Source: Myxococcales bacterium (lineage in GTDB: Bacteria; Myxococcota_A; UBA9042). Taken from it: a DNA stretch of 40,137 nucleotides. Positions within the stretch are counted from its first letter, which is position 1, and each line of letters opens with the position of its first letter. Positions 10,036 to 32,419 of this stretch are shown one piece after another. The notes beneath the pieces were generated by a model, which did not search any database, was not told where the DNA came from, and worked only from the letters and a program-made list of their open reading frames with translations. The stretch lies in assembly GCA_023954815.1 (NCBI GenBank), contig JAGSHB010000035.1, forward strand, positions 1 through 40,137. The letters are read 5' to 3'. The translations under genes and the position numbers were made by a program.

Positions 10036-10208
10036 CGTGAACCTCTCGCCGTATCGCCCAATCGGGCGCCTTGACCGTCGATACGACCGGTATCCACGGC
10101 CAAAAGATGACTGATGACAGTGAGTGACTGACAATAAATCGAAAGACGGCGCCTTGACGCTCTCCGCGTGCCTTGCTACTCGATTCCCTACGCTTAACCG
10201 TGAGTCTT

Positions 10209-12389
10209 ATGGACGTTTCGACCCCCGATCAGGACACCCACATCGACTCCTATGGGGTCACCGATGTCGGTTTAGAACGCAGCAACAACGAGGACGCTTT
10301 CCAGATCGTGGACAGCGAAGGTCTCTATGTCGTTTGCGATGGCATGGGTGGGCACGCATCCGGCGAGTTGGCGAGTCGACTCGCAGTCGAGGCGATTCAG
10401 ACGTTTGTCTGCGAAACCCTGAAGAAACCGGACTTTCGGTGGCCGTTTAACTCGCCTGCGGCGACGACGATGGAGACTCGGGTTCTCGATAGCGCCGTCC
10501 GTCTAGCCAATCAGGCGGTGTTCGAGGCGGCCAAGGCCGAACCGCGCCACAAAGGCATGGGCACGACGCTCGTTGCGCTGCTCGCGGGCCCAGAGCAGCT
10601 CGGTGGCGTACATGTTGGTGACAGCCGAATCTACAGGTTGCGCGATGGCGCAATCGAGCAACTGACCGATGATCACAGCCTACTCAACCACTACATCAAG
10701 ACTCGCGGGCTAACGGACGAGCAGATCCGCACCTTCCGCGGCAAGAATGTCATCGTGCGGGCTGTTGGTTTGCGCGAGTCGGTTCAGCCGGAAGTACATG
10801 TCTTCGATGTCCGTGCGGGCGATATTCTGTTGCTGTGCACGGACGGCCTGACGGATTTGGTCAACAACGATTTGGTGCGTGAGCAGATGATCGTGGGCCA
10901 GACTGACCTCAAGGCAGGAACAGACCAACTGATTCGTGCGGCGCTGGCGCGAGGCGGCAAAGACAACGTCACGGTCGTGATGCTGCGCGTTGGCGAGATC
11001 CCGGAAGGCGGCCTTGTCGTCCAGTCAGCGAGAAGCAGTGAGAAGCACGACTCCAGCCCGGGTTTTGGAGACACGGCCGGAAACGGCGCATGGGAAGAAG
11101 AGACGCTGCCGTCCTACGAGACCACGGTGCCACCGGTTGACAACGTAACCAACGCAGACACGCCAAAGGCGATGCCTGCCGTATCTGTGGCCGCTACCAA
11201 GGCGTCGGTCACTGCTGCGGTGAGTCAACCTATTCCTCCCCCGCCCGGCGCCGCGACCCCGCCGGCGCCTCCACCGTTACCCAACGACCCCGCGACGGCG
11301 ATCGCACCACCGCCACCACCGCCAATCACGGGGCGCAGCAAGCCGATTCCGCTGCCCCCCAATGCCGGAGCGACCGCGCGCGCGCCGATTCCGCCGCCGC
11401 CGCCCCAATCCAGCGTTCGAACACCGTTGCCGCTGCCCGGCGAAGTCAAGACCACGCAGCGGGCTCCCCTGGCGTTACCCGGCGGTAGAGGGAGCAGCAG
11501 CCCCATCGCGGCATCGAACGGCAGCTTGGACAGCCAAGGCATCCCCATCCCGCCGCCGCCTCCAGCGCAGCCCGCACAACCTGCACCGGCACCGACGAGC
11601 TCGGCCTCGGCGCCGATTGTAGTTCCAGCGCCAGGCCCCAACGCGCCGAAAGCGCGCACCGTCATCGTTGCTCCACCGGACAAAAAGGCGGGCGGCGTCG
11701 ACAGCAACGGGGCCGCGATTCCTCCACCGCCTCCCGCCAGCGGCCCCTCGATTCGCGTTACCGGGTCGAAGCTCGGGCTGAAGCGCCGGCGTCAGAGCAC
11801 CACAGGCCGCTCCACGCGCGTGCCGAAATCCGAGTCTCCCTTTGCGCAGACCCGAGTGGATGGCCGTAGCCCCAGCGCGGCGGTCGTCGGCCCCGCAGTG
11901 ACCCAGCCTGCACCTGGTGATGACAGCGACGACACCCCGCCACCGATGCCTGCTGCCACGAGCGCGCGCAGCACCGCAGCCGAGACGTCCATTGCCACCT
12001 CAAAACCTGATAATTCAGCGGATTTGAGCAATTCTGGCTCGCCGCCGCCACTCCCGACCACAACGCCAGACAACGATCCCACGCAGCCACCTCCCATTCC
12101 ACCGAGCAATCCCGAGATAGCGGTATCGGGCGTACCTGCAGGCGATGTGGGCAACCGCGGCGGCGCGGTCGGCCCCGGACTCCCAACGGTGACCCACGCG
12201 GGCATGCCCACGGCCCCCTATCGGACTGTGAGCGCAGACATGAATCTCGCTGAGGAATCGTCGACCTTCGTGCCTCCACAGATGTCGTCGCCAGCGTCAG
12301 TGCCTGCCGCAGCGGACCTATTCGACATGCCGACGCTCAAGCTCAAGCAGATCCCGCCCGAGGCACCTAATAGCGACGACGAGCCCTAG
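10209..12389 (+). CDS. PP2C-family Ser/Thr protein phosphatase with long Pro-rich tail
   Basis: Mn/Mg-dependent phosphatase of the PrpC/Stp1 group that opposes Hanks-type kinases. Residues about 10-260 carry the metal-binding motifs in order: RSNNEDAF, DGMGGH (Asp44-His49), VGDSRIYRL, DDHSLLN, GLTDLVNN (from about 214) and GKDNVTVV (about 251). Residues about 290-726 are low complexity: Pro, Ala, Ser and Thr with repeated IPPPPP blocks and a short basic patch (LGLKRRRQ). No membrane helix or second domain is visible. I chose the ATG at 10209, just before the domain; a TTG at 10173 would add 12 residues. No kinase gene is nearby. The tail length is unusual for bacterial PP2C proteins. Confidence 0.92.
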   Translation: MDVSTPDQDTHIDSYGVTDVGLERSNNEDAFQIVDSEGLYVVCDGMGGHASGELASRLAVEAIQTFVCETLKKPDFRWPFNSPAATTMETRVLDSAVRLANQAVFEAAKAEPRHKGMGTTLVALLAGPEQLGGVHVGDSRIYRLRDGAIEQLTDDHSLLNHYIKTRGLTDEQIRTFRGKNVIVRAVGLRESVQPEVHVFDVRAGDILLLCTDGLTDLVNNDLVREQMIVGQTDLKAGTDQLIRAALARGGKDNVTVVMLRVGEIPEGGLVVQSARSSEKHDSSPGFGDTAGNGAWEEETLPSYETTVPPVDNVTNADTPKAMPAVSVAATKASVTAAVSQPIPPPPGAATPPAPPPLPNDPATAIAPPPPPPITGRSKPIPLPPNAGATARAPIPPPPPQSSVRTPLPLPGEVKTTQRAPLALPGGRGSSSPIAASNGSLDSQGIPIPPPPPAQPAQPAPAPTSSASAPIVVPAPGPNAPKARTVIVAPPDKKAGGVDSNGAAIPPPPPASGPSIRVTGSKLGLKRRRQSTTGRSTRVPKSESPFAQTRVDGRSPSAAVVGPAVTQPAPGDDSDDTPPPMPAATSARSTAAETSIATSKPDNSADLSNSGSPPPLPTTTPDNDPTQPPPIPPSNPEIAVSGVPAGDVGNRGGAVGPGLPTVTHAGMPTAPYRTVSADMNLAEESSTFVPPQMSSPASVPAAADLFDMPTLKLKQIPPEAPNSDDEP

Positions 12390-12494: not shown

Positions 12495-15400
12495 ATGACT
12501 GCACGTATGGCAGGTCGTATCAGCGTCATTATCTGGCTCGCGGTGACTGCGGCGGCATGTGGTGATGGAGCAAACAAGTCCGATAGCGCGCCGGCGAACG
12601 CGGACATCATCGATGACGCTGGCGACCTCGATACCGACAACACCGATGACGCTGGCGGCGCGTCCGACACGTTAGAGAGCCAGGATGGTGGCCCTCAGGA
12701 CGGGTCGAGCGACGATGCGCTCGGAACCGATGCCTCGGGGACAATCGCCTGCCCTGGCGGGCCGGGATGCGCGTGCGACGAGAGCGATGACTGCGACAAC
12801 AACCTCTGCATTGATACGCCGACTGGCAAGCAGTGTGGGACAAATTGCATCGAGTCCTGCCCGACCGGGTTTGCCTGCCAAACCGTCTCCCGCGGCGGCG
12901 CCGACGTGGTGCAGATCTGTGTGCCCAAATGGGGCTTTCTCTGTGCTCCCTGCCAAACGGATGAGGCCTGCACCGGGGCGCTCGGTGACCACGGCTCGCG
13001 CTGCATCGACTACGGCGGAGGCAAGGGCAACTTCTGTGGATCGAGCTGCGACGCGGACGCCGACTGCCCGGCAGGGTACGGATGCAAGGAGAGCAAGACA
13101 GTCAGCGGCGAAAGCCGAAAGGCATGCGTAAGAAAAGACCTTGTGTGCCAGTGCTCAGCCCGAGCGGTCGCAAAGAAGCTCTCCACCACATGCGAGGCAA
13201 AATCAGCGCTCGGCAGCTGCCCAGGCACACGGACATGCACCGCGGAAGGGCCCATCGGAGATTGCACCGCCCCGGCCGCGGCGAAGGAGACCTGCGACGG
13301 CGTCGACAATGACTGCAATGGCAAGACGGATGATGGCCTCTGCGACGACGATAACCCCTGTACGACCGACGGATGCGTGGAAGGCGGCACCTCTTGCGGG
13401 CACACACCCGTGAAGACCTCTCCCGCTGTGAAATGCGACGACGGAGACGCTTGTACCAACGGGGACAACTGCGACGAAAAGGGAAAATGCGGTGGCAAGT
13501 CGATTGCATGCGACGACAAGAACCCCTGCACGGACGACAGCTGCAACGTGACCAAGGGCTGCGTCTACAAACCGCACAAGAAACCCTGCAATGACGGTAG
13601 CGCGTGTACGTCCAACGACCTTTGCGACGGGAAAGGCGCCTGTGTCGGCCTCAACATCGACGTGAAGGTGACCTGCGACGACAGCAATGTGTGCACCAAA
13701 GAGGGCTGCGATCCAAAGGCGAAAGGCGGAGGTCTCACAGCAGGCTGCACGCATTCCCCAGCAGCAGGCACGTGCGAAGATGGCAACCCGTGCACCAATG
13801 GCGACGCGTGCGCCGCAGGAAAGTGTGCTGCAGGAAAGAACGTCTGCGCCTGCGAGAAGGATTCTGAGTGCAGTGACAAGGAGGACGGAAACCTCTGCAA
13901 TGGCACGCTGTACTGCAACAAGGCCAAGGCGCCATTTGTATGCGATGTCGACCCCAAGACCCTCGTGACCTGCAACGCCAGCGGCGACACCACCTGCAGC
14001 AAGAGCGTGTGCGCGCCGAAGACTGGAAAATGCAGTCCACAAGCGGCCAAAGATGCGACCGCCTGCGACGCGGATAACTCTGTGTGCACAACGGGTGACG
14101 CTTGCCTCAAAGGCGTCTGTAAGCCCGGAAAATCAGTCGATTGTGATGATAAGAACGTCTGCACAAACGACGCATGCGACCCCACAAAAGGCTGTAAATC
14201 GACCTTCAACGTGGCCAAATGCGAGGACGGCGATTTGTGTACCACCGGCGACATCTGCGCGAGCGGCAAGTGCGCGCCGGGCAAGCTCACAGGGTGCGAC
14301 GACAAGAGCGGCTGCACGAAGGACGCCTGCAACAAAAAGACCGGCAAATGTGAGTTCGATGCGACGCCGTTTGAGGGCAGCGCCTGCAATGCCGACAACT
14401 CGGTGTGTACAAAGGGCGACAAGTGCACGAAAGGCGTCTGCGCCAAGGGCCCTGCGCTCGTGTGTGACGACAAGAAGCTGTGCACAGATGACAGCTGCGA
14501 CAACAAGACCGGCTGCAAGCACCTCAACAACAGTAAATCGTGTGATGCAGACGGCAACGCCTGCACACAGAGCGACGGCTGCAGCAATGGCTTGTGCAAG
14601 AAGGGTCCGCTCAAGACCTGCAACGACAAGAAGAGCTGTACCGTCGATTCTTGCGACACGAAGACCGGCAACTGCGTGTTCAACGCGACGAAACTGCACG
14701 GATCAGGCTGCGACGCGGACGGCAGCAAGTGTACGGTTGCTGATAAATGCGACGCGGGCACGTGCAAGCCGGGCAAGGTGCTGAACTGCGACGATGGCAA
14801 GTTCTGTACTGTCGACTCTTGCGACAAGGCGACCGGCTGCGAGCAGGTGCCGACAGATGGCAAGGCCTGCAACGACGGCGATGACTGCACCAAGAACGAC
14901 GCGTGCAAAGGTGGGGGCTGCTCAGGGCAGAAGTTGGTCTGCTCCGATGGCAACCCATGCACCAACGACAGCTGCGGCAAGGGCGGCTGCAAATTCGTCA
15001 AAAAGACGGATGGATCGGGCTGTGGCGGCGGTAAGTACTGCGTCACGGGCGCCTGCGTGACGCCGTCGTGCGGTGACGGGTTCGTCGGCCAGGGTGAGAC
15101 CTGTGACGACGGCAACAACAAGGTCTGCGACGGCTGCGAAAAATGCGCGCCGCGGGGCAACCTCGTGCTGGGCGGCAAAGGCTGGGCCCAGGTGTCTGCA
15201 GTGAGCCCAACCAAGGGCGGTCTCGTCTCCTCGCTGGGTTTGCACCGGGACATCACGGTCGAGGTGTGGGTGCGCCCAGAAGCGCCATCGGGCACGATTT
15301 TGGCCAAGGCACACAAATCCATGTCGACCACGACGTTCGCGCTGATGTTGAGCGGTGGCCAGCCGGTGTTCATGCACAGCTCACCGTTTGGAACCGAGTA

Positions 15401-17411
15401 CTTCCCCGCCAAGGTGGACGGCAAGGCCAAGAAGATCCCGACAAAGGCCTGGACCCATCTCGCGGTTGTGATCGCAGGCAAGAAGGTGCGCCTGTACGTC
15501 AACGGCAAGCGGGCGGGAGGCGGTACCAGCTACAAAGATCGGCTGGAGGCACCGACTGCGGGCCTCGTGGTCGGTCGGCGGTGGTGGGATACGTCCGGCG
15601 GCGAGTTCATCGGCAAGCTCGATGAGCTGCATGTGGCCAACGCGCCGCTCTATGGTGGAGATTTTGTGCCGTTGCGCAAAGTTCGTGCTGATAGGCGGAC
15701 TGCGGGGCTCTGGCACTTCGATGCACCCGGCGCGAAGACCGCGTCCGATGCTGGCCCGTTTGCGCATCACTTGGCCTTGAAGACAGCGGTCATCGGGTTG
15801 GACGACTGCCTGGGTCGCCCCGTCACCACAGCGGTGTGTGGCGATGGCAAGGTCGACTCGCTCATTGAGAGCTGTGACGACGGCAACGCCAAGCCCTGTG
15901 ACGGCTGTGAGAACTGCCAGCAGGAGCGCAGCTTCCGGGTGGACGAAAAGGGCGCGATGCAGACCGTCGGCTTCCCCACGTGGGCAGCGGATGCGGTGTG
16001 TAAGGACTGCACAATGACCGTCGAGGCCTGGGTTCAGGTCAGCAAAACGACGGGTACTTTCGAGTTTGCTGGTGCCAGCTGCGGCATCTTCTCGCTGATG
16101 TATTCAAGTACGCCCAGCGGCACATTCTTCGGCATGGTGCGCTTTCCATTGCCGCCCCTTTTCGGCTCAACGCCCGTAAAACCAGGGGTTTGGTACCATA
16201 TCGCCGCGGTCATGGGCTTCGACAAGGGCGCGCCCATGCGGCTGTATGTCAATGGCAAACTTGAGAAATCGGTGATCGCCGCCCTGCCGGCAGAGCTCCC
16301 CGGGTGGCAGGTCGCCAAAGAGGTGCTGCTCATGGGCGGCGGCTCCAAGGGCACGGGCCAAGGCTGTGTGTTCAAGCAAGAAAAACCACTGATCGCCAAC
16401 AACGTACCCGGCCGGATCGACGAGGTGCGACTCAGCGCTGGCGCGAGGTACGCGGCGAATTTCAATCCACGTCGGCGTTTGCTGCCCGACGCTCAGACAC
16501 GCGGACTCTGGCACTTTGATGCTGCGGCAGGCCTCAGCACAGACGACGGCGGCCAAGGCGTAGAGACCAAGCTCGTCGCTGGCGTGCCGGTCGCCGATGC
16601 CTGCTACGGAGAGCTGTCGAGCGCTGCGATGTGCGGCGACGGCAAGCAAGCGCGCTGGGAGGCCTGCGATGACGGCGCGGCCAACGGCGGCTACCCGAAG
16701 AAATGCGACCTGCTCTGCGCCGAGACGCAGGTGCCAGACTGTACCAGCCTGCGTCACAAGCCCCCGGTGACCCCAGTCGGCACGGGCGCAGCGGTGTACG
16801 GGAAAGGAGCGTGGACGGTCGAGGGCTGGGTGCGCCTCCCTGCCCTGCCCGTTGGCACCTACGGCGCGATTGTATCTGTCGACGAACCCTCCAGCATCCC
16901 CGGCAAGGGCTGCGGAGCGATGCCGGGCGCGCAAGCGTGGCGGGTCGCGGTCGGCGGAGGTGGACTGGAATCATCGCGCCTTGGCGGCGCAACGGAAAAA
17001 GCGACAGCCGCCTCGTTGGTCTGGCGCAAGGGCATCTGGCAGCACTTCGCGATGCAGTATCACGGTGACACAACTGGCTCACTTTGGGTCGACGGTCGCC
17101 TCGTACGCTCGTTCACCGGCGTAAAGAACGCCTGGGCGGCGAGCTGCCCCCTGCGGGTCGGCAATCACTTCGCCGGCAGCGCTCATCCGCTCGGGGCTGA
17201 GGTCGCCGCGCTTCGGTGGTCAAAAGCTACCCGCTACGGTGAACCGTTCATCCCACCGACCACGTTTGCCCCTGACAAGAACACGGTCTGGCAGTTTAAT
17301 TTGAGCGAGGGCGCAGGCTCCGTCGCCACCGACGTGGTCAAGGGCTTCAAGCTCGCAGTGGCAGGCGTAAGTTGGTCGAAGGCTGCCGGGCCCGGATGCG
17401 CCAAACCGTAA
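12495..17411 (+). CDS. Giant Cys-rich surface lipoprotein with three LamG-like domains
   Basis: Predicted surface-exposed lipoprotein of 1638 residues. The signal ends at TAAAC (Cys22), followed by an Asp/Ser-rich linker to about 80. A Cys-rich region spans about 85-860 and includes a MopE-like DNDCNGKTDDG motif (near 270) and about ten tandem modules of the form C.DG..CT..D.C..G.C with CDD.N.CT.D.CD. Three LamG/concanavalin-like sandwiches follow (about 885-1110, 1145-1370 and 1415-1635), each with VEVWV or VEAWV strands and a GLWHFDA-like close. Each sandwich is preceded by a Myxococcus-type CGDG...CDDG...C motif (near 858, 1114 and 1377). The SD GGAGG (12484-12488) sits 6 bases before the ATG. 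Adhesion or polysaccharide binding is an inference from LamG. Confidence 0.9.
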   Translation: MTARMAGRISVIIWLAVTAAACGDGANKSDSAPANADIIDDAGDLDTDNTDDAGGASDTLESQDGGPQDGSSDDALGTDASGTIACPGGPGCACDESDDCDNNLCIDTPTGKQCGTNCIESCPTGFACQTVSRGGADVVQICVPKWGFLCAPCQTDEACTGALGDHGSRCIDYGGGKGNFCGSSCDADADCPAGYGCKESKTVSGESRKACVRKDLVCQCSARAVAKKLSTTCEAKSALGSCPGTRTCTAEGPIGDCTAPAAAKETCDGVDNDCNGKTDDGLCDDDNPCTTDGCVEGGTSCGHTPVKTSPAVKCDDGDACTNGDNCDEKGKCGGKSIACDDKNPCTDDSCNVTKGCVYKPHKKPCNDGSACTSNDLCDGKGACVGLNIDVKVTCDDSNVCTKEGCDPKAKGGGLTAGCTHSPAAGTCEDGNPCTNGDACAAGKCAAGKNVCACEKDSECSDKEDGNLCNGTLYCNKAKAPFVCDVDPKTLVTCNASGDTTCSKSVCAPKTGKCSPQAAKDATACDADNSVCTTGDACLKGVCKPGKSVDCDDKNVCTNDACDPTKGCKSTFNVAKCEDGDLCTTGDICASGKCAPGKLTGCDDKSGCTKDACNKKTGKCEFDATPFEGSACNADNSVCTKGDKCTKGVCAKGPALVCDDKKLCTDDSCDNKTGCKHLNNSKSCDADGNACTQSDGCSNGLCKKGPLKTCNDKKSCTVDSCDTKTGNCVFNATKLHGSGCDADGSKCTVADKCDAGTCKPGKVLNCDDGKFCTVDSCDKATGCEQVPTDGKACNDGDDCTKNDACKGGGCSGQKLVCSDGNPCTNDSCGKGGCKFVKKTDGSGCGGGKYCVTGACVTPSCGDGFVGQGETCDDGNNKVCDGCEKCAPRGNLVLGGKGWAQVSAVSPTKGGLVSSLGLHRDITVEVWVRPEAPSGTILAKAHKSMSTTTFALMLSGGQPVFMHSSPFGTEYFPAKVDGKAKKIPTKAWTHLAVVIAGKKVRLYVNGKRAGGGTSYKDRLEAPTAGLVVGRRWWDTSGGEFIGKLDELHVANAPLYGGDFVPLRKVRADRRTAGLWHFDAPGAKTASDAGPFAHHLALKTAVIGLDDCLGRPVTTAVCGDGKVDSLIESCDDGNAKPCDGCENCQQERSFRVDEKGAMQTVGFPTWAADAVCKDCTMTVEAWVQVSKTTGTFEFAGASCGIFSLMYSSTPSGTFFGMVRFPLPPLFGSTPVKPGVWYHIAAVMGFDKGAPMRLYVNGKLEKSVIAALPAELPGWQVAKEVLLMGGGSKGTGQGCVFKQEKPLIANNVPGRIDEVRLSAGARYAANFNPRRRLLPDAQTRGLWHFDAAAGLSTDDGGQGVETKLVAGVPVADACYGELSSAAMCGDGKQARWEACDDGAANGGYPKKCDLLCAETQVPDCTSLRHKPPVTPVGTGAAVYGKGAWTVEGWVRLPALPVGTYGAIVSVDEPSSIPGKGCGAMPGAQAWRVAVGGGGLESSRLGGATEKATAASLVWRKGIWQHFAMQYHGDTTGSLWVDGRLVRSFTGVKNAWAASCPLRVGNHFAGSAHPLGAEVAALRWSKATRYGEPFIPPTTFAPDKNTVWQFNLSEGAGSVATDVVKGFKLAVAGVSWSKAAGPGCAKP

Positions 17412-17526
17412 CGCAGACGCCTCTGGCACAATTCGCACGCAATTCGACAACTCTCGGGGGAGGGTTGGGCGCCGCACGCGGCCAATTCAGCACCGCTCTC
17501 AGAATCGACAAGGCCCAAAAAGGAGA

Positions 17527-17552
17527 GCGGCCCCGGTGAAAGCCGGGGCCGC
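17527..17552 (+). terminator. GC-rich hairpin downstream of the giant lipoprotein gene
   Basis: Perfect 10-base stem GCGGCCCCGG (17527-17536) and CCGGGGCCGC (17543-17552) around a 6-base loop. There is no T-run downstream on the plus strand; on the minus strand the stem is followed by CTCTCCTTTTT. It sits 116 bases after the stop at 17411 and is the likeliest 3' end for that transcript. Confidence 0.5.
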
Positions 17553-17586
17553 GAGTCCTTCGAAGCAAGAGTTGGTCAAGATAGGA

Positions 17587-17677
17587 GTCGGTATGGGGTT
17601 ATGGTGTCATCCAACGATGTCCGGCTGTGCACTTCCCAACGATGCACGGTCGACAGGTCACCATATCCATACCCGAC
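17587..17677. repeat. Long-stem inverted repeat, possible structured RNA
   Basis: The outer arms 17587-17606 and 17659-17677 form about 17 pairs, interrupted by one bulged base and a 3/1 internal loop. The inner arms 17619-17631 and 17643-17654 form about 12 pairs with one bulge, closing on an 11-base loop. The 9-mer CCAACGATG occurs twice, once in the internal loop (17611-17619) and once in the apical loop region (17636-17644). No protein is encoded. It could be a small RNA, an attachment-like palindrome or 3'-UTR structure; the strand is unknown. Confidence 0.6.
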
Positions 17678-18337
17678 TTAGATGACGGGCCACCACTGAC
17701 GCGGTGGAAGGATGGGAGGAGTTGATGTGAGGATTTGATGGAACTCATGGGAATTCTGCTTGCTCCGGTTTACGTGGAGATATAACAGCAAGCTCCGTGC
17801 CATTGTTCCGCAAAGCGCTCAACTTTTTTTCAATCATTTGATTTTAAACCGTTTATTTTTATCCGCTCATTTTCCCTGCGTGGCTCCACCGACAATTTAC
17901 GGCGTGAGATGTCTTTTTGTGCGACAACTATATCAGGGTGATGACGAGCATTGGGCACGCCCCCAGCGCCCGGCCTTCTGCCGGTGTGAATCACGCCGAC
18001 CGGCAGCGCAAAAACGAAATAAACACCGTATAATCAGTTTGTTTCGACGTTCTTGGCTATCGATGGGAGCATGAAAATCATCCCACGCCGGTCGCATTTT
18101 TGTCGCACCATGACACACCGCGTCACGCTTACGAACGAGATCTAGTGCGGTCCGTTTTGAGACCCCCCTGCCGGGCACGAATTACCCAAATTGAAACTGT
18201 CTCATATTGACACGCGCCTTCTCCAACTATCCAAGCTGTCTCATGATGCCGTACCTACCGCCACGACGTTACGCACCACCCGTGCGCTGTCATGGATTCA
18301 CGCTTGCGCTGCGGTGTGGTATGTCGCGACGGTCAAC

Positions 18338-18344
18338 AAGGAGG
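18338..18344 (+). promoter_or_regulatory. Strong ribosome binding site fixing the acyl-CoA dehydrogenase start
   Basis: AAGGAGG, 5 bases before the ATG at 18350. It decides against the much longer in-frame start at 18191, whose extra residues look nothing like the family. Confidence 0.8.
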
Positions 18345-18349
18345 CTTTG

Positions 18350-19528
18350 ATGTCAGACCTGTTCAACCCGTCAGAGGAGCACCTCGCGCTGCGGCAGATG
18401 GTCCGTGAGTTCGCAGAGAAAGAGGTGGACCCTCAGGCTGAGGCCCACGACCGCGACGAAAAATTCAACATTGACCTGTTTCGCAAAGCCGGCGAATTGG
18501 GGCTGCTGGGCATCACTGTCGATGAACGCTGGGGGGGTGCGGGGATGGATGCGACCGCGGCCGTCATCGTGCACGAGGAGCTGTCGGCCGCTGACCCAGG
18601 GTTCGCGCTCGCATACCTGGCGCACAGCATGCTCTTCGTCAACAACCTCTCCATCAATGGCAACGACGAGCAGCGCGGTCGCATTTTGCCGGGCGTGTGT
18701 TCCGGCAAGAAGATCGGTGGCATGTGCATGAGCGAGCCCGGCGCTGGTACCGATGTGCTGGGCATGCGCACCAACGCCATACAAGATGGCGAGGACTGGG
18801 TCATCAACGGTGCCAAGATGTGGATTACGAACGGCGCAATCAGCGATACGGAGCTGGGCGACGTCTTTCTGGTCTACGCGAACACGGGTGGCAAGGGCAG
18901 TAAGGCGTTGAGCTTGTTCCTAGTCGAAAAGGGAATGCCAGGCTTCAAGTTGGGGCAGAAAATCAAGGGCAAGCTCGGCATGCGCGCGTCGACGACCGCA
19001 GAACTCGTGTTCGAGAACGTCCGCGTCCCCGCCGCCAACCTGGTTGGCTCACAGGGCAACGCTGTGCGTTCGATGATGCGCAATCTCGAGCTAGAGCGCC
19101 TCACGCTAGCGGCCATGAGCTTGGGAATCGCCCGTCGCTGCGTGGAAGTGATGAACCGCTACGCCAACGAACGGCAAGCGTTCGGTGTGCCGATCAATCG
19201 CTTCGGCCAGATTCAGCGGCACATCGCCGAGTCCTACGCCGAGTTCATGGCTGGTCGGTGCTACGTCTACAATACATCCAATAGCCTCGCACTCGATAGC
19301 TTCGGCAACCGTACCGATAGCGATGGCGTCAAGCTGTACTGCGCTGCCATGGCAAAGAATGTGGCGGATCGCGCGATCCAGGTGCTCGGGGGCTTCGGCT
19401 ACGTGGCTGAGTATCAGGTGGAGCGGCTGTGGCGAGATGCCAAGCTGCTGGAGATTGGCGGCGGCACCAACGAGGCCCATCAAAAGAACATGACCCGAGA
19501 GCTCGTGAGTCGGACCACTATTAAGTAG
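18350..19528 (+). CDS. Acyl-CoA dehydrogenase, isovaleryl-CoA dehydrogenase type
   Basis: FAD-dependent alpha,beta-dehydrogenation of an acyl-CoA (392 residues, normal length). The family signature MSEPGAGTDV, the WITNGA segment, the NERQAFGVPI helix and the C-terminal QVLGGFGY are present. The usual catalytic Glu of short- and medium-chain enzymes (in EIYEGTSE) is replaced by Gly (EIGGGTNE). A Glu is instead found at residue 249 in LELERL, the position used by isovaleryl-CoA dehydrogenases, and also by long-chain enzymes. The enzyme probably acts in leucine degradation and iso-branched precursor metabolism, which would suit a myxobacterium-like host. No other leucine-pathway gene is in the window. 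The start is fixed by AAGGAGG at 18338. Confidence 0.9.
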   Translation: MSDLFNPSEEHLALRQMVREFAEKEVDPQAEAHDRDEKFNIDLFRKAGELGLLGITVDERWGGAGMDATAAVIVHEELSAADPGFALAYLAHSMLFVNNLSINGNDEQRGRILPGVCSGKKIGGMCMSEPGAGTDVLGMRTNAIQDGEDWVINGAKMWITNGAISDTELGDVFLVYANTGGKGSKALSLFLVEKGMPGFKLGQKIKGKLGMRASTTAELVFENVRVPAANLVGSQGNAVRSMMRNLELERLTLAAMSLGIARRCVEVMNRYANERQAFGVPINRFGQIQRHIAESYAEFMAGRCYVYNTSNSLALDSFGNRTDSDGVKLYCAAMAKNVADRAIQVLGGFGYVAEYQVERLWRDAKLLEIGGGTNEAHQKNMTRELVSRTTIK

Positions 19529-30287: not shown

Positions 30288-30530
30288 ATGAACCGCAAAG
30301 ATATGATGAAGACCTTGGGCATCGCTGTTGTAGGCATCGCTCTCGGCGCTGGAACCGCCTCCGCTCAGTCCCTCGTCGACTCGGCTCCTGCATCGGTCAA
30401 GGCCGGCTGTGGTGGCAAAGGCGGCTGCGGCGGCAAAGGCGGCTGTGGCGGCAAGAAGGCTGCTCCTAAAAAGGACGCCAAGAAAGACGCCAAGAAGGAC
30501 GCCAAGAAGGCAGAAGCCAAAAAGAAGTAG
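30288..30530 (+). CDS. Exported Cys-repeat peptide, probable RiPP precursor (bufferin-like)
   Basis: 80-residue peptide. A basic N-terminus and hydrophobic core form a Sec signal peptide with cleavage expected after TASA (residue 26). The mature part has three consecutive 6-residue repeats GCGGKG/GCGGKG/GCGGKK (Cys41, Cys47, Cys53) and a Lys/Asp/Ala tail of KKDA units. The SD AGGAGAGG (30273-30280) is strong. Directly downstream is a DUF692-DUF2063 protein, the enzyme/partner pair that converts precursor cysteines in bufferins and HvfA peptides. By analogy this is the substrate, with its signal peptide acting as or within the leader. It is not similar at a glance to BufA1 (DUF2282) or to the EGKCG repeats of HvfA. 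The modification itself is inferred. Confidence 0.85.
   Translation: MNRKDMMKTLGIAVVGIALGAGTASAQSLVDSAPASVKAGCGGKGGCGGKGGCGGKKAAPKKDAKKDAKKDAKKAEAKKK
30405..30506 (+). repeat. In-gene tandem repeats of the precursor
   Basis: Three 18-base units (30405-30422, 30423-30440, 30441-30458) encode the GCGGKG/K repeats and differ at only a few bases. Three 12-base units (30471-30482, 30483-30494, 30495-30506) encode KDAK. Such repeats can grow or shrink by slippage, changing the number of cysteines. Confidence 0.85.
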
Positions 30531-30552
30531 CGAATTCGTCGTGTCTCGCGAC

Positions 30553-30595
30553 TAGGATGGGTCGGGTCTGTTGGGCTCGACCCATTCTGCTTTTT
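30553..30595 (+). terminator. Intrinsic terminator/attenuator between precursor and enzyme genes
   Basis: Stem 30553-30568 with 30574-30589 (about 16 pairs including G-U pairs; core ATGGGTCG/CGACCCAT), 5-base loop, then C and TTTTT (30591-30595). It lies 23 bases after the precursor stop and 28 bases before the enzyme start. It would make abundant precursor mRNA with limited read-through into the enzyme. An in-frame ATG at 30557 lies inside the hairpin and is not the enzyme start. Confidence 0.8.
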
Positions 30596-30610
30596 GCCAT
30601 TCTGCGTTTT

Positions 30611-30615
30611 GGAAG
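30611..30615 (+). promoter_or_regulatory. Ribosome binding site fixing the MNIO fusion start
   Basis: GGAAG, 7 bases before the ATG at 30623, just beyond the terminator T-run. Confidence 0.6.
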
Positions 30616-30622
30616 TGCAACA

Positions 30623-32419
30623 ATGACACCACCGCCCGCTAATCGTTGGGGTTTGCCGGACCTGGGCCTGGGTCTCGGGCTACGCACACAACACATCGAG
30701 ACGATTTTGGCGGAGGAACCAGACGTCGGTTGGTTCGAGGTGATCACCGAAAACGCGCTGCATCATCGGGGATGGTACCGGTCGACCCTCGCGCGCCTGC
30801 GGGAGCGATACCCCATCGTGCTGCACGGCGTTTCACTGTCCATCGGGAGCGCCGATCCCCTCGATATGGACTACCTCAAACAAGTCAAAGCGCTAGCGGA
30901 CGAACTCGCTGTGCCGTGGCTGAGCGATCACGTGTGCTGGACGGGGGTGCGCGGGCAAAATAGCCACGACCTGCTGCCGGTTCCCTATGACGAAGCGACC
31001 CTGGCGTGGATGGTGGCGCGCATCCGGCAGGTGCAAGACGTGCTGGAGCGGCCGTTGATGCTGGAAAACCCCTCCAGCTACGCGGAATTCAGCTCGACCA
31101 CCCTGACGGAATGGGATTTTATCGCTGAAATGGCTGAGCGCGCGGATTGCGGGCTGCTGCTCGACGTCAACAACATCTACGTCAGCGCCATCAACCACCA
31201 CTTTGATCCGATGGACTACCTCGCGGCGATTCCCTGGGACCGCGTGACGCAATTTCACGTCGCCGGGCACACCAACCGCACCAGTCACCTATTCGATTCG
31301 CACATTGGCCCTGTCATCGAACCGGTCTGGGAGCTGCTCCGCGTCGCGCTGGCACGTTCCGGTGGTCGGGCGACGATGCTCGAGTGGGACGACGAGATCC
31401 CCGACTTTGATGTGGTGTGGCAGGAGGCCAAGCGGGCGGAGCCATGGATTGCCGAGGTGCGGGCGCACACCTCACAAGGCGCCCCCACAGTGCACAGTCG
31501 CCCATTCTCATCCCCCAGTGGCGACGCCGATCCGAGCGCTGTACACCATCTACAGACATGGTTCTTGGATGCCATCACGGGTCAGACTCAGCCCACTCCG
31601 ACCGAGATCAAGGGCTTTGTGCTGGCCAACGACAAGATGACGGCTCAGATGCGACTGACCGTATATGAACGGATGGTTAGCGCCAGATTGCATGAAGCGA
31701 TGCAGGAGGATTTTCCCGCGACGTTGGCGACCGTTGGCTCAGAGCGGTTCGGTGAGTGGGTGACGGCGTATTTGCGCGCGCATCCGTCGCATCACTGGGC
31801 GTTGGAGCGCTTGGGAGCTGATTTTGCGGGCTGGATCGCCAGATCTGACGCTTCGGACAAAGAGCAACTGAGCGCCTTAGCCGCGTTGGAGTGGCAGCTC
31901 GTCACCACGGGCTGGGAGCCTTGGCAGGCGCCGGTCACCGCTGGTGCCCTGGCCACCGTTCCGCCCGACCGCTACGGCGACCTGATCCTCCACAAGGCGC
32001 AGACCACGTGGTTAGGCACGGCTGACGCCGCCGCTGTGCAGGCCATCGCCAGCGCGTGGGAGAGCCGGGTGGAAGGCGCCCAATCACAGGACGTAGGGTC
32101 GCTAGATGCAGGGTCGCTACATGCAGGGTCGCTAGAACCAGCGGCGTTGGAAGCAACGTCCCTGGGCGACGATTGCGTGCACGTTGTGATCTATCGCGCT
32201 GGATGGACGGTCGATATCCGCACGTTGTCCACGGCCGAAGCTGCGGTGCTGGAGGCGCTGCTCTGTGGCGCGCCCCTCGGCGACGCAGTGGTGAAAGCCA
32301 GCGAGCGGGGTGACGCCATCGCCGCGGAGATTGCCGCGTCTCTCGGCCAATGGACCCAGCGCTGGGTGGCCGATCAAGTGGTGACGGGTCTGTCTCTCGC
32401 GGAACCTACGCCCGCTTGA
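30623..32419 (+). CDS. bufB: DUF692 multinuclear iron oxidase fused to DUF2063 partner (BufB-BufC/HvfB-HvfC type)
   Basis: 598 residues. Residues about 10-285 are a DUF692/MNIO TIM barrel with the conserved metal-site residues: His68 (LHGVSLS), Asp102-His103 (LSDHVCW), Glu148-Asn149 (LENPSSY), Asp181 (DVNNIYV), His192/193, His212 and His216 (FHVAGH), Asp225/His227 (DSH) and Glu254 (EWDDEIP). About 312-598 are DUF2063, the precursor-binding partner, here on the same chain with a repeat linker (GSLDAGSLHAGSLEP). MNIOs convert precursor cysteines (for example to thiooxazole or oxazolone/thioamide groups). Partner proteins are usually separate genes. The ORF overlaps the convergent PhnA-domain gene by 14 bases. 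Chemistry here is inferred from the family. Confidence 0.93.
   Translation: MTPPPANRWGLPDLGLGLGLRTQHIETILAEEPDVGWFEVITENALHHRGWYRSTLARLRERYPIVLHGVSLSIGSADPLDMDYLKQVKALADELAVPWLSDHVCWTGVRGQNSHDLLPVPYDEATLAWMVARIRQVQDVLERPLMLENPSSYAEFSSTTLTEWDFIAEMAERADCGLLLDVNNIYVSAINHHFDPMDYLAAIPWDRVTQFHVAGHTNRTSHLFDSHIGPVIEPVWELLRVALARSGGRATMLEWDDEIPDFDVVWQEAKRAEPWIAEVRAHTSQGAPTVHSRPFSSPSGDADPSAVHHLQTWFLDAITGQTQPTPTEIKGFVLANDKMTAQMRLTVYERMVSARLHEAMQEDFPATLATVGSERFGEWVTAYLRAHPSHHWALERLGADFAGWIARSDASDKEQLSALAALEWQLVTTGWEPWQAPVTAGALATVPPDRYGDLILHKAQTTWLGTADAAAVQAIASAWESRVEGAQSQDVGSLDAGSLHAGSLEPAALEATSLGDDCVHVVIYRAGWTVDIRTLSTAEAAVLEALLCGAPLGDAVVKASERGDAIAAEIAASLGQWTQRWVADQVVTGLSLAEPTPA
32094..32138 (+). repeat. 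Three 15-base tandem repeats in the DUF2063 part
   Basis: Consensus CAGGGTCGCTAGATG, three in-frame copies (32094-32108, 32109-32123, 32124-32138) encoding GSLDA-type units. They form a linker between the folded DUF2063 segment and its C-terminal subdomain. Confidence 0.8.

Follow-up and report, generated by a model that had tools for sequence, protein, structure and literature searches.

The inverted repeat at 17587-17677 is, as its promoter, terminator and relatives indicate, the middle domain of a larger RNA gene, predicted on the minus strand with a length of about 260 nt. The window is the whole stretch analysed, 40,137 nucleotides of contig JAGSHB010000035.1 (assembly GCA_023954815.1) from a Myxococcales bacterium. 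Taken alone, the gene, its minus-strand orientation and its sigma54 promoter are predicted with near certainty. The best explanation of all the observations jointly, which we regard as reasonably probable, is a trans-acting small RNA (sRNA) gene within a circuit of sigma54 and an activator, whose product would pair with Shine-Dalgarno sequences. The features are collected in Table 1.

Table 1. Positions in the window of the predicted RNA gene, its structural elements and the candidate activator sites.
Feature	Position	Strand	Basis or remark
sRNA gene body, ~260 nt	17517..17776	-	33 homologous copies; start predicted from promoter
sigma54 promoter TGGCACGGAGCTTGCT (-24/-12)	17787..17802	-	GG and GC elements in 33/33 copies
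Intrinsic terminator hairpin and T tract	17517..17552	-	Terminator scan of the window
Closing helix P1, 5' strand CGGAGCAAG	17759..17767	-	Covariation and fold
Closing helix P1, 3' strand CTTGCTTCG	17561..17569	-	87-90% of cells paired, 33 copies
Pseudoknot 5' strand UUCCCA	17748..17753	-	Pairs with 17633-17638
Pseudoknot 3' strand UGGGAA, in P3 loop	17633..17638	-	Covariation; overlaps apical 9-mer
G-poor unpaired arm with repeated UCC boxes (putative seed region)	17708..17747	-	UCC enrichment
Small variable hairpin CCACCGCGTCAGTGGTGG	17690..17707	-	In minimum-energy fold
Stem P2, 5' strand	17671..17678	-	74-83% of cells paired
Stem P2, 3' strand	17586..17593	-	Covariation
Inner stem P2b, 5' strand	17658..17665	-	56-76% paired
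Inner stem P2b, 3' strand	17600..17607	-	Covariation and fold
Hairpin P3, stem GTGCAT/GTGCAC, loop CGUUGGGAA	17627..17647	-	97% of cells paired
Candidate activator site, 11/14	17910..17926	-	124 bp upstream of promoter
Candidate activator site, 12/14	18101..18117	-	Consensus match
Candidate activator site, 12/14	18198..18214	-	Consensus match
Candidate activator site	18237-18253		

Extent and orientation of the gene

A sequence-only reading of the window had described a nested inverted repeat in an intergenic region. The repeat is there, between an ORF at 12495-17411 and an acyl-CoA dehydrogenase ORF at 18191-19528, both on the plus strand, and its fold is strong: positions 17585-17680 of the plus strand give -42.0 kcal/mol (z -4.67), a value equalled by none of 200 shuffles. 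The proposal of a structured RNA was right, and the element passes the covariation test that the reading itself had suggested (see below). Its extent and strand need correction: the predicted gene runs to about three times the described length, on the opposite strand. The hairpin of that reading corresponds to stems P2, P2b and P3 viewed from the other strand, and conservation extends well past it, over about 17510-17806.

The plus strand, implied by the earlier drawing, was at first also taken by us as the sense strand on account of its better hairpin energy; the same hairpin on the minus strand gives -34.2 kcal/mol (z -1.84), with 10 of 200 shuffles as good, and this better folding of the short hairpin alone as plus strand counts against our orientation. 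The plus-strand reading was dropped because a conserved '3' box' corresponds to a minus-strand sigma54 promoter and a GC-rich hairpin to a minus-strand terminator. In the window the promoter reads TGGCAC-N5-TTGC, near-perfect by what we take to be the sigma54 -24/-12 consensus. The pattern TGGCAY...TGC precedes 32 of the 33 copies; since this stretch forms part of the models by which the copies were detected, the presence of the promoter is partly selected for, but its perfect GG and GC elements are not. At the other end of the element a GC-rich hairpin followed by a T tract was detected by script in all 33 copies. The gene start near 17776 was placed about 12 nt past the GC of the -12 element, and its end at the terminator T tract. 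Over this length (17775-17517) the computed fold of the minus strand reaches -94 kcal/mol (z -4.38, 0/200 shuffles) and contains P1, P2 and most of P3; wobble pairs point the same way (69 G-U cells versus 36 A-C cells, a nearly fixed U-G pair left out). With promoter, terminator, wobble pairs and the fold of the long transcript all indicating the minus strand, a structured RNA on the plus strand is extremely unlikely in spite of its hairpin energy.

A structured RNA whose 3' end is a terminator could also be a minus-strand leader or attenuator that acts in cis on a neighbouring gene. The window holds no minus-strand gene past the terminator, its two flanking genes being encoded on the plus strand, and the neighbours vary among the 33 copies, so we consider such a leader very unlikely.

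Conserved structure

The 33 copies were aligned to a sequence-only model and tested against a 41-pair structure, with 500 shuffles and a slid control for comparison. Cells of this structure were paired in 85.0% of cases (75.3 +/- 0.6 when shuffled, 40-46% when slid), two-sided changes occurred in 31 pairs (19.1 +/- 1.9 shuffled), and the covariation score was 0.302 compared to 0.146 +/- 0.008 shuffled and 0.07-0.10 slid. None of the 500 shuffles reached any of the observed values; related sequences may exceed shuffles without any structure, and the slid control retains this relatedness. RNAalifold on 22 copies also predicted P1, P2, P3 and the terminator, with two-sided changes in 24 of 35 pairs. 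Comparison of the copies shows a conserved predicted fold of P1, P2, P3 and a pseudoknot. The inner stem P2b is weak across the family and clear in the fold of the window copy, and the small variable hairpin aligns poorly among copies and was left out of the covariation count.

By these comparisons the pseudoknot is the strongest part of the structure. It joins a site near the 5' end to the loop of P3 across a distance of about 110 nt in the window, and its six pairs can form in all 33 copies, with two-sided changes in four of them. Each copy has one of the variants UCCCUA/UAGGGA, UCCCUG/CAGGGA, UCUCUA/UAGAGA or UUCCCA/UGGGAA. In the free-energy fold, which omits the pseudoknot, the 5' strand of the pseudoknot is taken up by a small hairpin. 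Genus g10 (L102-L107) has a second, diverged type of paralogue, in which a GTGGCG/CGCCAC-type pairing stands in place of P1 and the pseudoknot is the same.

The sequence-only reading attached functional meaning to a pair of identical loop motifs. The 9-mer CCAACGATG does occur twice, at 17611 and 17636, inside a 14-nt direct repeat with copies 25 nt apart, but exact doubling is found in only 2 of the 33 copies, those of the window and its genus relative. Judged across the family, the doubling is incidental; the 9-mer of the apical loop matters, as it overlaps one strand of the pseudoknot.

Distribution and genomic context

Within the genus, blastn found one relative (78% identity over 299 bases), and a second was then found in the family. 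Of 22 genomes of the order, 16 had the element according to a sequence model built from the window and these two relatives (R1), and 10 of 10 genera were represented. With a second sequence-only model, derived from 22 copies (R2), 20 of the 22 family genomes matched strongly, at E values of 1.3e-8 or below. None of 30 further genomes of the class did so, and five of these matched weakly (E 8.6e-4 to 7.7e-3). A run of R2 across the phylum (282 genomes) recovered these 20 family genomes again, and no convincing copy was seen in the 260 genomes of other families, where there were two weak matches only (E about 9e-4). In total there are 33 copies in 20 of the 22 genomes of this family of uncultured 'Myxococcales', with two copies in 13 genomes; those without the RNA are G001 (67% complete) and G007 (88%). 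The genome of the window has one close copy and one diverged paralogue, its second copy being at G000:C219:30257-30538.

The 12 records from a pattern scan are metagenome-assembled genomes, nine of them labelled (uncultured) Myxococcales bacterium. Two further matches, in Ruminococcus and Spirochaetes, look like chance; L021 is a chance match, apparently within coding sequence. Several candidate distant homologues were rejected: L069 (18.2 bits, weak) has neither the promoter nor the loop motif in its sequence, L158 (18.9 bits, weak) has no sigma54 promoter in its sequence, and L109 and L113 reached at most 11.2 bits with the structured model. L066, L067 and L070 scored at most 13.4 bits (L068 was unlisted). 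The window had no match in Rfam 15 at the gathering threshold, under permissive settings the Rfam matches were confined to the neighbourhood of the terminator hairpin, the best scoring 20.5 bits where the cut-off is 39, and ARAGORN found no tRNA or tmRNA in the window.

The possibility of a palindrome acting at the DNA level, raised earlier as a site-specific recombination palindrome and here taken to include an integron attC site or a dispersed repeat, draws on the length and intergenic position of the inverted repeat. The element is not dispersed, with a single close copy and one diverged paralogue in its genome, and no homologue was found among 72,556 plasmid records. It is bracketed by a sigma54 promoter and a terminator, and its long-range covariation includes a pseudoknot, for which a DNA palindrome has no need. 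We give this explanation practically no weight.

Clustering of the neighbours of the 33 copies, with annotation of 20 proteins, showed that neighbours differ among copies, which fits a free-standing, trans-acting gene. A protein cluster of nine members adjoins 9 of the 33 copies, and a scan of one of its proteins identified a pyruvate phosphate dikinase; the RNA lies directly behind the protein of this cluster in L084, L085, L086, L080, L082, L092, L096, L097 and L099. The RNA might be linked to pyruvate phosphate dikinase metabolism. A PPDK-type kinase/pyrophosphorylase gene precedes the scanned pyruvate phosphate dikinase. Another cluster, of eight members, adjoins eight copies, and here the single protein that was scanned proved to be of the Clp-type AAA+ kind. 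In the window, the ORF at 12495-17411 encodes a large Cys-rich/LamG protein with LamG-like domains, Dicty_CTDC repeats and DUF4215, a relative of which (L095:706-5694) also adjoins the RNA copy of G015. Other features of the window are a PP2C-type protein phosphatase with a long proline-rich tail (10173-12389) and short tandem repeats with periods of 12, 15 and 18 bp (30399-30611 and 32095-32136).

Upstream sites and a candidate activator

The 600 bp upstream of the 33 promoters have in common a dyad, TCTCA-N3-TGAGA, which is perfect in 15 copies. The consensus of the candidate activator site was defined as the palindrome TGTCTCAnnnTGAGACA, and a match as at least 11 of its 14 bases. Such sites occur within 300 bp of the promoter in 32 of the 33 copies, and number 57 in 9.9 kb of upstream sequence compared to 12 in 333 kb elsewhere, an enrichment that is partly circular because the consensus was derived from the same upstream regions. 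Also against the predicted control, the window copy has only one site of this quality within 300 bp and better ones at -315 and -412. Its four candidate sites span the intergenic region toward the acyl-CoA dehydrogenase gene. This neighbouring gene may share the predicted activator control, for example via 18198-18214.

As an independent check, the whole genome of the window was searched for sites with at most two mismatches to the consensus, which gave seven sites, and three in a backwards control. Four of the seven precede the two RNA copies of this genome or an activator gene, three being upstream of the RNA copies, and the only site with a single mismatch lies about 70 bp before the start of the activator gene. 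This gene (G000:C118:5345-6811) encodes a protein of 488 amino acids with receiver, sigma54-interaction and Fis-type helix-turn-helix domains, nearest to NtrC in NCBIfam and below the cut-off of that family. Orthologues were picked by score as the 19 best family matches, at least 424 bits each (the next group reached at most 310), and 18 of the 19 have a site of at least 11/14 within 700 bp upstream, the exception being in G013. Paralogues of the activator had a site in none of the seven loci that the script could read (10 were fetched). G015 has one further partial match to the activator. Sigma54 itself is encoded in 21 of the 22 family genomes, and the exception is the 67%-complete genome.

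Two genomes speak against the circuit: two copies of the RNA occur in G012, where no activator orthologue stands out clearly, and G007 shows the reverse, an activator gene preceded by its site and no RNA that we could find. Both assemblies are fragmented and incomplete (below 90%). On the evidence of sites and domains, the palindromes are very probably bound by this one NtrC-type enhancer-binding protein, which would drive the RNA. As the same palindrome also stands before the gene of the activator in nearly all orthologues, the simplest reading is that a self-controlling activator probably drives the sRNA.

Mode of action

The arm between the 5' strand of the pseudoknot and the first hairpin contains 9% G and 40% C. 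UCC occurs 115 times in the arms of the 33 copies (62.3 +/- 6.0 in composition-matched shuffles), UCCU 55 times (18.1 +/- 4.2) and UCCUU 27 times (5.2 +/- 2.4), and two or more UCC are present in 32 of the 33 arms, as redundant CU-rich boxes in an unpaired stretch. Shine-Dalgarno sequences contain GGA, the complement of UCC. No Hfq was found in the 22 family genomes by a search whose control was positive in 5 of 14 known genomes. Myxococcus xanthus and myxobacteria are likewise reported to be without Hfq (PMC5684412). An unpaired, G-poor 5' arm with repeated UCC boxes leads us to infer an sRNA that pairs with Shine-Dalgarno sequences independently of Hfq.

A precedent is LhrC of Listeria, an RNA of 111-114 nt under LisRK control, which is described as multicopy, with Hfq dispensable, and as G-poor with redundant CU-rich UCCC sites that block the Shine-Dalgarno sequence (PMC4132741). 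Our RNA resembles LhrC in being G-poor and multicopy, in its redundant CU-rich boxes and in its presumed independence of Hfq. The two have no homology, and pairing has been shown for LhrC whereas here it is predicted. Redundant unpaired CU-rich boxes, the mark of the anti-Shine-Dalgarno (UCCC/CU-box) class of sRNAs, are thus present. Given the gene, UCC enrichment, absence of Hfq and the LhrC precedent together make anti-Shine-Dalgarno pairing the most likely mode of action, one that we favour with some reserve.

In the mechanism that we envisage, a signal would act on the activator, which would control itself and, with sigma54 polymerase, switch on the sRNA. Without Hfq, the sRNA would then pair its exposed UCC boxes with the Shine-Dalgarno sequences (GGA) of several mRNAs and so lower their translation, while P1 and the pseudoknot would hold the arm in a fixed loop.

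The UCC boxes could instead bind a protein, and protein titration is the main rival to pairing. CrcZ of Pseudomonas is a sigma54-dependent RNA driven by the NtrC-type activator CbrB. A sponge RNA of this kind, comparable to CrcZ or CsrB, would leave the gene and its circuit as described and make the UCC boxes the sites of a titrated RNA-binding protein; it would be in keeping with a short motif repeated along an unpaired arm, with predicted control by sigma54, which CrcZ also has, and with the strong overall fold. The known motifs are absent or few, however: the CA motif of CrcZ, presumably AAYAAYAA, occurs in none of the 33 copies, and GGA, which we take to be present many times in hairpin loops of CsrB/RsmZ, occurs 1-8 times per copy (mean 3.6) and by inspection mostly outside loops. 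RNAs of the CrcZ type have Hfq as their partner, and none of the 22 genomes has it; we know of no partner protein that binds UCC. A sponge is therefore an unlikely alternative, yet one to be taken seriously. The RNA shares with CrcZ its predicted dependence on sigma54, an NtrC-type activator, here a candidate, and a repeated short motif, and differs in lacking the CA motifs and in a host without Hfq.

A wider form of the pairing hypothesis is more speculative, and we put it forward as doubtful. The RNA would be a lineage-specific master riboregulator of bacteria without Hfq, in which a dedicated, self-controlling NtrC-type activator drives a pseudoknotted RNA and the UCC arm acts as a multi-site anti-Shine-Dalgarno device gated by the pseudoknot. 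In the pseudoknot, a UCCC seed would be paired with GGGA, a Shine-Dalgarno-like sequence within a loop of the same RNA, and a target or factor that opens the pseudoknot would switch the RNA between locked and active states.

Comparison with known small RNAs

Two marks of the class of sigma54-dependent sRNAs are present, a -24/-12 promoter directly before the RNA and, as candidate sites with predicted binding, upstream enhancer sites together with a sigma54 activator. A myxobacterial member is Pxr of M. xanthus, described as a 108-nt coding region with three stem-loops, located between the activator gene nla19 and a NADH dehydrogenase gene (PMC5568312, PMC5684412). Pxr too is a myxobacterial sRNA with a predicted sigma54 promoter, an upstream enhancer-binding region and paralogues in some species, in an organism without Hfq (PMC5568312, PMC5684412). 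Unlike Pxr, the RNA reported here is about 260 nt long with a predicted fold of P1, P2, P3 and a pseudoknot, its candidate activator is encoded elsewhere in the genome, and its neighbours are different ones. An activator gene beside the RNA, as in Pxr, was looked for, and among the 20 annotated neighbour proteins there was neither a sigma54 activator nor a NADH dehydrogenase. Length, fold and neighbours set it apart from Pxr. R2 gave no strong match in the 260 phylum genomes outside the family, a set that may or may not include Myxococcus.

The Qrr sRNAs of Vibrio are described as multicopy small RNAs driven by the NtrC-type LuxO and sigma54 (PMC10162802). The combination of an NtrC-type activator, sigma54 and a small RNA in more than one copy recurs here; the absence of Hfq, the length, the fold and the lineage differ from Qrr. 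LuxO sites, which we take to be TTGCA-N3-TGCAA, were not found in the 150 bp upstream of any of the 33 copies.

Because the tested defining features of Qrr, CrcZ and Pxr were lacking and Rfam gave no match, this is apparently a new RNA family among the sigma54-dependent sRNAs, set apart by its long pseudoknotted architecture. A word search of the open-access literature found no published description of it, absence there being no proof.

Implications

RNA, promoter, activator and site are all predicted from genomes of uncultured bacteria. To our knowledge, few myxobacterial sRNAs with a known control circuit have been described, and the present analysis contributes a family of RNAs whose structure has strong comparative proof, together with its promoter type and a candidate activator gene and DNA site. 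The family makes two questions open to concrete test: how an sRNA may act without Hfq, and whether an anti-Shine-Dalgarno seed can be gated by a pseudoknot.
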